Shown piece after piece: positions 1 to 25,312 of a stretch of 33,699 bases of DNA. The stretch is from an uncultured Pseudomonadota bacterium. GTDB taxonomy: Bacteria > Myxococcota_A > UBA796 > SXON01. Positions within the stretch are counted from its first letter, which is position 1; each line of letters starts with the position of its first letter. The notes beneath the pieces were generated by a model. It was not told the DNA's origin, made no database searches, and saw only the letters and a program-made list of their open reading frames with translations. Location of the stretch: NCBI GenBank assembly GCA_903844155.1, contig CAIMSU010000167.1, forward strand, positions 1-33,699, given 5' to 3'. The translations under genes were made by a program, and so were the position numbers.

Positions 1-26
1 CAGGCTATTGACGCGTCAATAGCCTG
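1..26. repeat. 26-bp perfect palindrome at window edge
   Basis: Bases 1-13 (CAGGCTATTGACG) are exactly mirrored by bases 14-26, with no spacer. It lies 61 bp upstream of the eutB start. It has no following T-run, so it is not an obvious intrinsic terminator. It could be an operator for the eut genes, the end of a dispersed repeat, or a snap-back artefact if the contig ends here. Confidence 0.6.
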
Positions 27-87
27 AACTGAGCAGCTCGGATCGGGCCTGCCAGCGGGTGTACCGGCGGCGGGGTAAAGAGCCCTC

Positions 88-19348: not shown

Positions 19349-20041
19349 TCAGTGCGCGACCTTCGCCCACGCTACGGCAAAATCGAAGTCGGGTGAACGC
19401 TCCCATGTGTGGCAGGCAACGCACGCTGCAGCCGAGCGAGGGAGCTCACCGTAGGTTGGGCGGCTCGCTCGGCCCGGCGCGGGTGCCGCCGTGTGCTTTG
19501 GAACGCCGCTTTGCCCCTCGGCAGTTCCTGAAGCGCCCTCCTTCGCCCGGACGTGATCGGAGCCGGGGCCGTGGCAGGCTTCGCAGTCCACCGCAGGCGA
19601 CGGCGGTGGTTGCAAGGGTAGCCGGTCCGGCACTCCGCCCGGCTGCAAGTAGCCGGTGTAGTGGCAGCCCACGCAATCCGCGCGGTTCTCCGCGCCGGCT
19701 TTCGCGAGGCCGTACTCGGCGAGCGGGTGGGCGGTGGTCAGCCAGATCGCGTATTCGGCGGCGTGACAGCCGGCGCAGGTCCGTTGGCCCGCGTAGCCGG
19801 CCGTCGCCCGATTCACCCCAGCAAACGGGGGTAGTGGGCTCGCGTAGGGTAGGGGCGTCGGCCCACCTCTCGCCTGATCTGGCACCAACCGCGCTGCTTC
19901 AGCCGCCGCGGCGATGAAGCGGGCGGTGGGGTCCGGCTCCAGCGCCTGGGGCTGGGCGATCCGGTGACAGGCGAAAACGCCGACGGTAAGCACCGCAATC
20001 CGGCTCCCTGGCCAGCGATGTACGAAAACCGACGACGTCAC
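19349..20041 (-). CDS. Tetraheme cytochrome c554-like protein
   Basis: Four haem-attachment sites lie in the C-terminal two-thirds: CAGCH, CVGCH, CEACH and CVACH (residues 89, 123, 153 and 207 counted from the GTG at 20041). The arrangement ADCVGCHYTG, then VDCEACHGPGSDH, is typical of the cytochrome c554 / multihaem CXXCH family, which is periplasmic. The start is uncertain. The frame is open to an ATG at 20092, but that adds sequence encoded by a large palindrome. GTG at 20041 gives a plausible hydrophobic signal ending VGVFAC. GTG at 19993 has AGGGAG ten bases upstream but leaves only eight residues before that Cys. The function is electron transfer; partners are not evident. Confidence 0.85.
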   Translation of the reverse strand: MTSSVFVHRWPGSRIAVLTVGVFACHRIAQPQALEPDPTARFIAAAAEAARLVPDQARGGPTPLPYASPLPPFAGVNRATAGYAGQRTCAGCHAAEYAIWLTTAHPLAEYGLAKAGAENRADCVGCHYTGYLQPGGVPDRLPLQPPPSPAVDCEACHGPGSDHVRAKEGASGTAEGQSGVPKHTAAPAPGRASRPTYGELPRSAAACVACHTWERSPDFDFAVAWAKVAH

Positions 20042-20093
20042 TTTTCCTACGTCTGCGACGTACGAAAAGTGACGTCGTCGGTTTTCATACATC
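20017..20093. repeat. 77-bp nested palindrome (37-bp arms, 3-bp loop)
   Basis: Bases 20017-20053 are the inverse complement of 20057-20093 with only two mismatches, around a TGC loop. Each arm is itself an inverted repeat: GTACGAAAA (20020-20028) opposite TTTTCCTAC (20042-20050), and GTACGAAAA (20060-20068) opposite TTTTCATAC (20082-20090), around a CGACGACGTC core. This gives four related half-sites. It lies between two minus-strand genes and carries an open frame that runs into the cytochrome gene. Confidence 0.85.
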
Positions 20094-20158
20094 GTGCGAC
20101 ATGCGGCGAGTCGGAGCTTCGCTCGTCATGGGTTCGCCGTCATGTGGCGCCGAGGCGC

Positions 20159-21790
20159 TCAAAACAGGTACGCAATCCGCGTCTGGAACGTGAAGTAGTT
20201 GCCGTAGGTGCTGCCATCCTTGGCGGTCTCGTACTTCAAGCCCGTGTTCTCCAGCGGCACCCGGTCGGTGATGTGTGCGTAGCCGGCCTCCAGCGACAGG
20301 TTGATGTGGTCGTGGAACGTGTGCTTGACGGCAGCGTCTGCCTCCCAGCCGATCGTCTTCTTGGTGGCCTTGTATTGGGCACACTCAATCGGGTTGCCCT
20401 GCGCATCTTTGTCGCCTTTCGCGCACAGGATGCGGGAGCCGTCGGGCTTGTCGGGCCACGCCGTCAAAAACGCGCCGACAACCTCCCAGTTGGGCAGCGG
20501 GTGGTACTTCACCGTGGGGTAGAGGTACCGGCTGTTGTACACGCCGCCGTTGGACCAGAGCCCCTTCGCCTCATCCGACCACGTCTCCGACGTCACCCGC
20601 GCGAGCACCTCTTCATAGAGGATCAAGCCCACATTGTAGTCGGGGTTGAGGGCGCGCCCGGTGAACTTCTCGTCCGCAGCCTTGTCGTCGCCCGAGGCGT
20701 ACCCGGTCTCCAGGTACGCGGTAACAGGCTCGCTGGTGTACCCGGCGCGGGCCACGTAGCCCCAGATGTCGACGTCCTTGAGCAGCGGATCCGCCGTGCC
20801 CGAGGGGTCGTACACACCCGCGAGCGTGATCGCGCGGGAGGTCCCGCCGATGTGGTAGGCCTCGCCCTCAAAGTAGGTGTTGGCGATGACCTCTTTGCCG
20901 TACGCATCTGCGATGAGGATGTTGGAGTCTGTCTCCTTCTGCCGACGATTGACCACGTAGACACCGGCGTTGATGTCGCCGTCCAGGTTCTTCGTCAGCT
21001 TCTGGTTGTCGCCCTTGTACAGCAGGACGTAGACCATCTCCCACACGTCGTCCTTGGTGTCGACCCACCATGTCTGTCCACGCGTCGACGCGTCGCGCGG
21101 CTCGGAGAAGCCGTGATCCTCGGTGGGATCGGCGCAGCCGTCGTTCGGGTCTGTCTTGGAGCAGGTGTAGCCGTAGTATTGGATGAGCGGATCCTCAACC
21201 AATCGATCGACGCCGACGGCCGCGATCAGCGGCACCTCTTTCGCGCCCTTCTTGCCCATGATCGTCTGCGCGATGGTGATCGGCTTGGTGGCGAAGATCG
21301 CCCGGTCGTACGTCGATCCGTACTGGTTCTCGCCGAACGTGTCGTCAAAGCCGTTGCCCTCGTTCGCGAGCGCGCCCATTCCCCAGTTGGAGCCTTGACG
21401 GCCGATCTTCAAGAGGCCGATCGGCACCTTGAACTCCATCCACACCCGCTTGAGCTCGATGGGGCTGATTTCACCGCCCGTGTAGTTGGTCGCCGAGGGA
21501 TCCGCCGCGAACAACGCCGTGCTTGCGAGAGAGGCGTTGTCGCCCCAATAGACGCCGTCGATCCCGTCGATCATCATGAAGAACTTGGCGCGGTCCTCGA
21601 AATTCAACTGCGGCTGCAGCCGGAGCTTGTGGGTCATGTACGTACCCGGCTTCGTCTGCCCCTCGAACAGCCCCGCAAACACGTAGCCGCGCGTGCGATA
21701 GTACCCGTCCAACGAGAACTTCCAGTTGTCGGGTGCGTCCGCGTGCGCCAGGCCCGAGGCCAGCATCGCGCCAAGGAGCGCCGGGATCAT
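20159..21790 (-). CDS. Large outer-membrane beta-barrel protein
   Basis: A 543-residue protein with a signal peptide (MIPALLGAMLASGLAHA). Long alternating strands follow, beginning WKFSLDGYYRTRGYVFAGLF and ending YGNYFTFQTRIAYLF. The terminal Phe is the classic C-terminal signal for barrel assembly. The first strands (KLRLQPQLNFEDRAKFFMMIDG; KVPIGLLKIGRQGSNWGMG) resemble alginate-export or phosphate-porin style barrels, which show a similar GRQ-x-x-WG turn. An extracellular loop has two Cys (CSKTDPNDGC). The ATG at 21790 overlaps the stop of the upstream lipoprotein gene by four bases; the longer open frame upstream is a shadow. The substrate is unknown. Confidence 0.82.
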   Translation of the reverse strand: MIPALLGAMLASGLAHADAPDNWKFSLDGYYRTRGYVFAGLFEGQTKPGTYMTHKLRLQPQLNFEDRAKFFMMIDGIDGVYWGDNASLASTALFAADPSATNYTGGEISPIELKRVWMEFKVPIGLLKIGRQGSNWGMGALANEGNGFDDTFGENQYGSTYDRAIFATKPITIAQTIMGKKGAKEVPLIAAVGVDRLVEDPLIQYYGYTCSKTDPNDGCADPTEDHGFSEPRDASTRGQTWWVDTKDDVWEMVYVLLYKGDNQKLTKNLDGDINAGVYVVNRRQKETDSNILIADAYGKEVIANTYFEGEAYHIGGTSRAITLAGVYDPSGTADPLLKDVDIWGYVARAGYTSEPVTAYLETGYASGDDKAADEKFTGRALNPDYNVGLILYEEVLARVTSETWSDEAKGLWSNGGVYNSRYLYPTVKYHPLPNWEVVGAFLTAWPDKPDGSRILCAKGDKDAQGNPIECAQYKATKKTIGWEADAAVKHTFHDHINLSLEAGYAHITDRVPLENTGLKYETAKDGSTYGNYFTFQTRIAYLF

Positions 21791-22716
21791 CCGCCGCACG
21801 TCGCGAGGCAGGAGGCCGGGAGGTAGACGCCGTCCTCGATGCCCGTGTAGATGTTGGAAATGACGACGGAATCGGGCTCCATTGTGAGGTGCGTGGACCC
21901 CATCATCAGGTACTGCGTGCCGTCCCACACCCACATCTCCACGATCCAGTCGCCGGGCGGCACGTTGATCGCCGACCACAGGCCGTCGTCGTTGGTGTCG
22001 GGCTGATCCGAGTTCGGCAGGTTGTTCGCGAAGTAGCGAACGGCAAGGTCGGGCGGGACGTTGCCGTCCGCGTCGTGGATGTACACCTGCGCGTGCTGGA
22101 TCTTGCCCATGTTGCAGTCGTACGCGGTGCCGGCGATGATCGCGGTGCCGGACTCCCACTCAAGGCCGAGGAGCGAGGGGATGAGGCGCGAGGTCGCCAC
22201 AGACACCGAGTTCCACGTGTCGGTCGTGGCGCCGCTGGCGTCCCACTCGTAGACCTGGTGCACCTCGTAGGTGTTGACGGTCTCCTCCCAGGCGGCCGGC
22301 GTGTAGGTCTCGTAGCCGAGCGCCGTGCAGGCCGGGACGGTGATCGAGCCCGCGCCGTTCGCATCCACGTCAAAGCTCATGTCCGGCGTGGAATTGATGT
22401 CGTCGTTGGACCAGAAGTACACGCTCGCGTCGGCGACCGGGAGGTCCTGCTGGAAGTCGCTGACGGTGGCGCTCACGGTCATGTCGCCGGTGCAGCCAGT
22501 GGCGGGCGTCTGCTGGAGCCAGGAGACGCCGTCGCCGTTGTAGCAGGTGGTGTCGCCGACGTAGGTCGACGTCGTGTTCACGAACGCGTCCATCGGGTTG
22601 CCGCTGCCGCTGTCGCTCGTGGCGGTGTCGTCTTTCGCGGCGGTCCCGCCGGAGCACGCGGGGAGGGCGGTCAGGGCGACGAGCGCGGTAAGGACAGGAA
22701 GGAAGAAGCTTTTCAT
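21787..22716 (-). CDS. Lipoprotein with carboxypeptidase-regulatory-like domain
   Basis: A 309-residue lipoprotein with a signal MKSFFLPVLTALVALTALPAC (lipobox LPAC, Cys21) and a linker KDDTATSDSGSGN. The mature part contains beta-sandwich segments, including HAQVYIHDADGNVPPDL and GLWSAINVPPGDWIVEMWVWDG, typical of carboxypeptidase-regulatory-like or transthyretin-like folds. Six or more Cys in the mature part suggest disulfides. GAGGA lies five bases before the ATG at 22716; the frame is open further upstream but that part is Arg/Pro-rich non-coding sequence. It is coupled by four bases to the barrel gene that follows, so it may be a surface partner of that barrel. Confidence 0.78.
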   Translation of the reverse strand: MKSFFLPVLTALVALTALPACSGGTAAKDDTATSDSGSGNPMDAFVNTTSTYVGDTTCYNGDGVSWLQQTPATGCTGDMTVSATVSDFQQDLPVADASVYFWSNDDINSTPDMSFDVDANGAGSITVPACTALGYETYTPAAWEETVNTYEVHQVYEWDASGATTDTWNSVSVATSRLIPSLLGLEWESGTAIIAGTAYDCNMGKIQHAQVYIHDADGNVPPDLAVRYFANNLPNSDQPDTNDDGLWSAINVPPGDWIVEMWVWDGTQYLMMGSTHLTMEPDSVVISNIYTGIEDGVYLPASCLATCGG

Positions 22717-24194: not shown

Positions 24195-25312
24195 CGACGG
24201 GCGAGAGCGCGCCCGAGCTGCCCGAGCGACAGCGCTGGGGTTTTTGGGGGTGGTGGGCGACCGGTCTGGCCGTGGCGACGGGGCCGCTGGCGTTCGGGCT
24301 GACGCAGGCCGTCAGGCCGTCGTGGGTGGAGGCCCACTATGCGCTGGGGATTGGGCAGCCGTTGGCGGGCCTGCTGGGGCGTGCGACCGGCCTCGCCCCG
24401 TTTTCGGTCGTCGAGATGTTGATTTACGTGGTTATCGGCGGTTTGTTCGTTGGCATCGTGGCGGCGATGCGGACGGAGGCTGGGCGGGCGAGGCGCGCGC
24501 TCCTCCCGCGCTGGGGCCTTCGGGGGCTGGTCGCGTTGTCCTGCCTCTACGCCGTGTTCGTGCTGGTCTGGGGGCTCGATTATCGCCGCCAGCCGATCAT
24601 CGGCCGCTTCGGCTTTCACAAGGGACCGCCTACGCACGAGGAGATCGCCGGCCTCGCCATCGCGCAGGTGGACGCGGTCAACGCCGCACGGGTGCTCGCA
24701 CACGAGGATGCCGACGGCGTCGCCACCTTCGCCACCTCGGAGGCCGACGCGTTCGACCACGTCGCCGCCGACTACGACCGCGCGGCGGCGCGCTGGCCGT
24801 TCCTCGGCGGGCGTTACTGCCACGCCAAGCCCGTCCAGCTCTCGCTCATCCTCTCCTATGCCGGCGTTGGCGGTGTGTATTCCCCGTTCACCGGTGAGCC
24901 GAACGTGAACGTCGGCCAGCCAGCGTTCGACATCCCCTTCTCCATCGCGCACGAGACGGCCCACCAGCGCGGGATCGCCCGGGAGGACGAAGCCAATTTC
25001 GTCGCCTGGATCCTCCTGCGCGACTTCGGCGACCCGGATGAGCGGTACAGCGCGCTGCTCGAAGGCGCCTACTACGCGATCCACGCGTATGGCCAGCTCG
25101 ACCGGCCCGCCGCCCGTGGCCTATGGGACAGCATGAGCCCTGGCGTTCAACGCGACATTGCCGCCGAGGACCGCTGGCGGGCGCGCTACACCACACCGCT
25201 GGCGGAGTGGAGCGCGGACCTCAACAGCGCGTATCTCAAGTCCAACGGCGTGAAGGACGGCGTCGAGAGCTACGGCCGGATGGTCGATCTCATGGTGGCC
25301 GAGCGGCGCTGA
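24191..25312 (+). CDS. DUF3810 membrane protein with HExxH motif
   Basis: A 373-residue protein with three hydrophobic segments in the first 130 residues (about 30-45, 80-95, 115-135) and a long C-terminal domain. The domain carries HETAH (254-258) with Glu267 in EDEAN downstream, the layout of a gluzincin metalloprotease site, preceded by a VYSPFTGEPNVN segment. This matches the DUF3810 family. The substrate is unknown. The start is GTG at 24191, four bases overlapping the CotH-like gene; the frame is open further but only as shadow. The coupling suggests a functional link between the two products. It ends one base before the convergent gene at 25314. Confidence 0.82.
   Translation: MTTGESAPELPERQRWGFWGWWATGLAVATGPLAFGLTQAVRPSWVEAHYALGIGQPLAGLLGRATGLAPFSVVEMLIYVVIGGLFVGIVAAMRTEAGRARRALLPRWGLRGLVALSCLYAVFVLVWGLDYRRQPIIGRFGFHKGPPTHEEIAGLAIAQVDAVNAARVLAHEDADGVATFATSEADAFDHVAADYDRAAARWPFLGGRYCHAKPVQLSLILSYAGVGGVYSPFTGEPNVNVGQPAFDIPFSIAHETAHQRGIAREDEANFVAWILLRDFGDPDERYSALLEGAYYAIHAYGQLDRPAARGLWDSMSPGVQRDIAAEDRWRARYTTPLAEWSADLNSAYLKSNGVKDGVESYGRMVDLMVAERR

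Follow-up and report, generated by a model that had tools for sequence, protein, structure and literature searches.

A REPIN-like family of paired palindromes and its probable Y1 transposase partner in an uncultured Myxococcota_A bacterium

The element between the porin and cytochrome genes

The window (the whole stretch of 33,699 nucleotides that was analysed) carries a REPIN-like element between two minus-strand genes, one porin-like and the other for a multihaem cytochrome (Table 1). An earlier note had described a nested palindrome at this position, and the description is borne out: the two arms (20016-20053 and 20057-20094) are 95% complementary, with two mismatches, and lie 3 nt apart, and each of the 38-nt arms contains a 31-nt imperfect palindrome whose stem is interrupted by a mismatch and closed by a 3-nt loop. 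The T-run of a terminator is absent, as the same note had claimed. Its four GTACGAAAA half-sites are only partly recovered: two are exact (20020-20028 and 20060-20068), whereas the remaining pair, GTAGGAAAA and GTATGAAAA, each differ by a single change. The copy is a '+-' pair with a spacing of 40.

Table 1. Coordinates of the features in the window
Feature	Position	Strand	Description
REPIN-like element	20016..20094	.	pair of 31-nt palindromic units, '+-'; 38-nt arms, 3-nt centre
Unit 1	20020..20050	+	GTACGAAAACCGACGACGTCACTTTTCCTAC; '+' core GACGACGTC; CC/AC internal mismatch
Linker	20051..20059	.	9 nt, GTCTGCGAC; symmetry centre TGC at 20054-20056
Unit 2	20060..20090	-	same family as unit 1, inverse orientation
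Multihaem c-type cytochrome ORF (Cytochrome_C554)	19349..20092	-	first ATG within the element; true start probably downstream of the element
Porin-like beta-barrel outer-membrane protein ORF	20159..22159	-	end 65 bp from the element; true start probably internal
Family 3 copy	1..44	.	unrelated palindrome, cognate to RAYT3; the contig begins inside it

The single-strand fold of the element and its flanks comes to -40.1 kcal/mol, where shuffles average -13.8 (z -11.6; 0/200 shuffles); that of the 79-nt element without flanks, computed with DNA parameters, comes to -42.8 kcal/mol (z -13.2). The hairpin of a lone 31-nt unit is weak (-2 to -5 kcal/mol) and not clearly above shuffles in stability. 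The standout feature is the long hairpin, not the unit hairpins.

The 3' part of the porin-like ORF is 79-81% identical to its counterparts in three genomes of the same genus (G002, G003 and G004). The cytochrome ORF has its first ATG (20090-20092) within the element's outer arm, and the insertion may thus offer this gene an upstream start codon; conservation of the cytochrome with G003 starts downstream of that ATG.

A dispersed, extragenic and lineage-restricted family

In the genome (8.13 Mb, 375 contigs) the symmetrical core pattern identifies 148 units (0 with the reversed control), and a 20-mer finds 77 forward and 83 reverse matches at ≤3 mismatches, with none for its reversed control. 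The genome-wide search for copies proposed in the earlier note thus returned about 150 dispersed copies, counted as 31-nt units. Because these units sit in many unrelated contexts, with unrelated flanks, the assembly foldback artefact against which that note had warned is excluded.

Statistics on arrangement, mismatches and gene context refer to 118 units in 76 clusters, taken from about 1.1 Mb around copies rather than from all 148. The consensus of the 118 units is [GAC]TA[TC][GC]AAAACC-GAC-GAC-GTC-AC-TTTT[CG][AG]TAC, with little or no variation in the inner GAC/GTC pairs. The C.C and C.A mismatches between the AAAA/TTTT and GAC/GTC stems occur in 73/118 and 63/118 units, and covariation in the unit stem is weak since most positions are nearly invariant. 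No GTAG or GGAG head was found 5' of the hairpin; the unit begins with [G/A/C]TA[T/C][G/C] within the stem and has no asymmetric head. Units occur singly, in tandem at a 31-nt period, or as inverted pairs spaced mostly by 31 or 40 nt, and the order of the inverted pairs is strongly polar ('+-', n=24; '-+', n=1).

Genes around the copies were called with a simple home-made codon-usage caller trained on the fetched loci, and some assignments are imperfect, since it missed the window's cytochrome gene; on this basis 65 of the 76 clusters are intergenic, while random positions fall outside genes in 14% of cases and inside them in 86%. With the same calls, clusters lie between convergent genes in 20 of the 56 classifiable intergenic cases (36%), compared with 17% of all gaps. 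An exact 22-mer search of viral contigs did not recover the repeat.

Many contigs begin or end within copies of this family (family 1) or of family 2: C82, C124, C192 (both ends), C201, C287, C294, C296, C298, C54, C74, C101, C113, C218, C259, C268, C321, C323, C335 and C349. Long palindromes of this kind therefore matter for assembly, and those of the two families probably cause a good part of its fragmentation.

Among 37 relatives, four of them of the same genus, only seven have any match to family 1 at 3 mismatches, with at most two each; these matches are at chance level and none is a true copy. The porin gene aligns to its stop codon in G002, G003 and G004, and the cytochrome gene is next to it in G003 and G002. 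The junction of the two genes in these last two genomes has no palindrome and is about 85-160 nt shorter. Since the relatives are only about 80% identical, this empty site is not exact to the base and the boundaries of the insertion are unreadable. The element could have been lost from the relatives rather than gained here, but the absence of the whole family from them favours gain in the genome of the window.

Y1 transposase genes, their flanking repeats and the alternatives

A Pfam Y1_Tnp search of the genome gives one gene above the cut-off, C268:23798-24592 (RAYT1), and repeat dimers lie on both sides of it. One is directly upstream (C268:23693-23743); the other (24601-24651) overlaps the stop codon of the gene and supplies it. 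Taking about 100 clusters among several thousand gene gaps, a rough estimate is that chance alone would fill both gaps of a given gene for about one in several thousand genes. The HUH motif of RAYT1 is SAHLH and its tyrosine motif YIHAN; both histidines and the tyrosine are invariant in nine homologues. The tyrosine context reads YIHANV, compared with Y---NP, and YIHANPSP in the paralogue RAYT2. At the position of the W-Q pair these enzymes have F followed by a variable residue. The best NCBIfam model for RAYT1 is REP_Tyr_transpos (NF047646; E 4e-10), at 39.8 bits and so below the cut-off of 80, and the C-terminal third matches helix-turn-helix (HTH) models, all sub-threshold. A PDB search gave nothing relevant with the single sequence and only weak IS200-type transposases with a nine-sequence profile (2xm3 and 2f4f; E 0.003 and worse). 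The enzyme was not found in plasmids, and a scan of genome contigs with two enzymes, possibly not covering the window's own genome, returned a single remote homologue.

A profile built from RAYT1 and RAYT2 and run across the order recovers five full-length homologues in the window's genome, two in G001, which belongs to the same genus, and one in G004, all with at least 146 bits; the remaining matches score 54 bits or less. The five genes are divergent single-copy paralogues (RAYT1 and RAYT2 are 49% identical), and an IS200/IS605 insertion sequence, with a multicopy and near-identical transposase, was rejected on this account. Four of the five have their own distinct flanking palindrome, recurring at least 24 times. 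RAYT2 is flanked by ACCACAACTGCAGAGA hairpins of a family with 58 hits, whose inverted dimers are built like those of family 1 (junction TACATC-NNN-GATGTAC, paired matches 51 nt apart), RAYT3 by GATCTGAGC[A/T]GCTCAGATC (29 units) and RAYT5 by GTCTCAGAAACGCCCTACGCGATTCTGAG (24 copies); no clear repeat was seen in the flanks of RAYT4. One G001 homologue is flanked by GGGTAGGATCCGCCCTCCG, present in 37 copies in that genome at 0-1 mismatch and giving chance-level matches only in G003 and G004. The G004 and G002 homologues have their own palindromes alongside.

RAYT4 (L164, G000:C259:18124-18909) and the G001 homologue (L169, G001:C170:16801-17586) adjoin the same neighbour gene in opposite orientations, and clear flanking palindromes are present in G001 only. 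Two distant Y1 homologues, L172 (G011) and L171 (G002), have flanking inverted repeats of GGTGTCAAACTGCAGGGTCTGACCCC and GTGTCAGGTTGTTACC type, which resemble the published TIRYT GGGGWSAS type.

The element in the window is very probably a REPIN/BIME-type REP copy and the substrate of a domesticated RAYT/TIRYT-type Y1 (HUH/tyrosine) transposase, RAYT1. Direct support comes from the family itself, its copy number and extragenic location, the polarity of the dimers, the linkage of transposase and repeat, which recurs in independent families, and the absence from relatives. The family was likely spread within this genome by the Y1 transposase whose gene the repeat brackets, and we infer that the repeat is mobile. 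Of the three options offered in the earlier note, the non-autonomous mobile repeat thus stands, given the many copies and the repeat-flanked transposase gene, but not in the form of a classical MITE. The other two, a site for a multimeric protein and a structured RNA, are unneeded to explain the family; secondary roles of that kind may exist.

The palindromic units, with their regular 31- and 40-bp spacing, would also suit binding by a multimeric protein that organises the chromosome or acts as a regulator, the transposase neighbourhood then being incidental, and gyrase, Pol I and IHF do bind E. coli REPs (PMC6006769). The family is, however, confined to one genome and absent from genomes of the same genus. 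Moreover, five families of unrelated sequence (four here, one in G001) are each found around a Y1 gene of their own, a pattern not expected of a host-protein site. This explanation is very unlikely. Still harder to sustain is a structured RNA, in which the intercistronic hairpin between porin and cytochrome genes would stabilise or attenuate the mRNA. The strong fold (z -13, DNA parameters), the position between co-oriented genes and the enrichment of copies between convergent genes agree with such a role, but an Rfam search of the element gave no match, copies stand beside unrelated genes with none at the same junction in relatives, and any effect on RNA would be secondary and would not account for the family. 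Descent from a DDE-transposase insertion sequence, as a classical MITE, is rejected as hardly conceivable despite the terminal inverted symmetry, small size and high copy number: direct target duplications in the flanks, which the earlier note had proposed as a sign of a MITE, were not seen among 24 inverted dimers, whose flanks are if anything complementary, the arrays are modular and variable (monomer, tandem, inverted), and the gene with the same ends encodes a Y1, not a DDE, enzyme.

The complementarity of the flanks was examined in 24 '+-' dimers (L041-L100 and the window) at several offsets. It is copy-specific and reaches 0.81 at offset 1-2 (0.58 in shuffles, P 0.002) and 0.54 at offset 5-6 (0.35 in shuffles, P 0.004); it is not seen around monomers or tandem copies. 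In at least seven cases the dimer occupies a single fixed position within another dispersed repeat, copies of which also occur without it. These features could reflect insertion into hairpin loops, or a correction of the long hairpin by template switching. The other repeat has the form GCGGCGTTCC...GGATCGGCG...GAGCGAGCCGCCCAAAGGAT; it was observed with a '+-' element at L054, L060, L061, L062, L077, L082, L086 and L095, and without one at L048, L064, L068, L082:3515 (minus strand) and L097.

If the element is a REP-type substrate of RAYT1, its proliferation would start when the region becomes single-stranded, as on the lagging-strand template. The folded hairpin would be bound by the enzyme, which would cut beside it through a 5'-phosphotyrosine link, and the excised hairpin would be joined elsewhere, by analogy probably on lagging-strand templates. 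Copies would thereby build up between genes while the enzyme gene remains single-copy. Cleavage, joining, strand preference and present activity are attributed to this putative enzyme by analogy with known systems.

Comparison with known REP and TIR systems

A GTAG head is the usual defining mark of REPs. The present system apparently has the whole REPIN anatomy (extragenic location, polar inverted pairs, a cognate Y1 enzyme, one family per enzyme) without it. Like the REP/REPIN/BIME-RAYT systems of E. coli and Pseudomonas, it consists of short extragenic hairpins (PMC2817692, PMC3116915, PMC8266576), arranged in inverted pairs with one preferred order, and of a single-copy HUH/Y1 gene flanked by repeats, in keeping with the RAYT rule of one enzyme for one repeat family (PMC2817692, PMC6006769). 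The stem mismatch is conserved in family 1 as in E. coli REPs, and recalls the one required by E. coli TnpA_REP in its REP (PMC8266576), a resemblance only. Unlike REP/REPIN systems, family 1 lacks the GT[AG]G head and has an A/T-rich stem foot, and the enzyme is without the W-Q pair and has a putative HTH-like domain at its C-terminus.

The W-Q pair is kept in the GTAG-reading subclasses (PMC6006769) and is replaced here, so that the hairpin is probably recognized through its stem and mismatch. A more tentative proposal, for which the case falls somewhat short of even, is that these enzymes form a lineage-specific Y1 clade without GTAG-reading residues, in which hairpins would be read by stem mismatch and sequence alone and which would have diverged, within one genome and genus, into several enzyme-repeat pairs of mutually exclusive specificity. 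Such a clade would provide a natural series for how HUH enzymes shift their hairpin specificity. With four pairs in one genome and one in a sister species, specificity would be testable by swaps of enzymes and hairpins.

The TIRYT/TIRtron systems (Di Nocera et al. 2013, PMC3733652), for example S. maltophilia ORF 1152, resemble the present one in that the Y1 gene lies between self-complementary inverted repeats that lack a GTAG head, and in that the repeats make up a family of moderate abundance, with single copies, dimers and clusters. They differ in that the sequence here is unrelated, the family counts about 150 units and several enzyme-repeat pairs occur together in one genome. The GGGGWSAS motif, common in the TIR of many TIRYT but not of all (PMC3733652), was not found in the flanks of RAYT1. 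CGTC-tagged repeats (PMC3733652) are likewise short, palindromic and intergenic, and mostly inverted dimers; however, CGTC is terminal in them and central in the unit here, and they lack the flanked transposase gene that family 1 has.

The enzymes also appear to share with TnpA_Y1 subclass 2.1 (Quentin et al. 2018, PMC6006769) a length of about 260 aa, F (FQ-like) at the position of W, a low copy number, a YI-HxN tyrosine motif and a putative HTH-like C-terminal extension, and differ in their HUH motif (SAHxH here, NHxH in subclass 2.1). In a large survey of Y1 proteins, subclass 2.1 genes were reported to have no REP-like sequences next to them (PMC6006769), whereas such repeats are present beside the genes described here. 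To judge by their motifs, the enzymes resemble TIRYT and subclass 2.1 proteins. The system has most REPtron features but neither the GTAG head nor enzymes that reach the curated RAYT cut-off, and it agrees with the looser description of TIRYT/TIRtrons with self-complementary repeats; for these reasons, together with its subclass 2.1-like enzymes, it is set outside the GTAG REPs.
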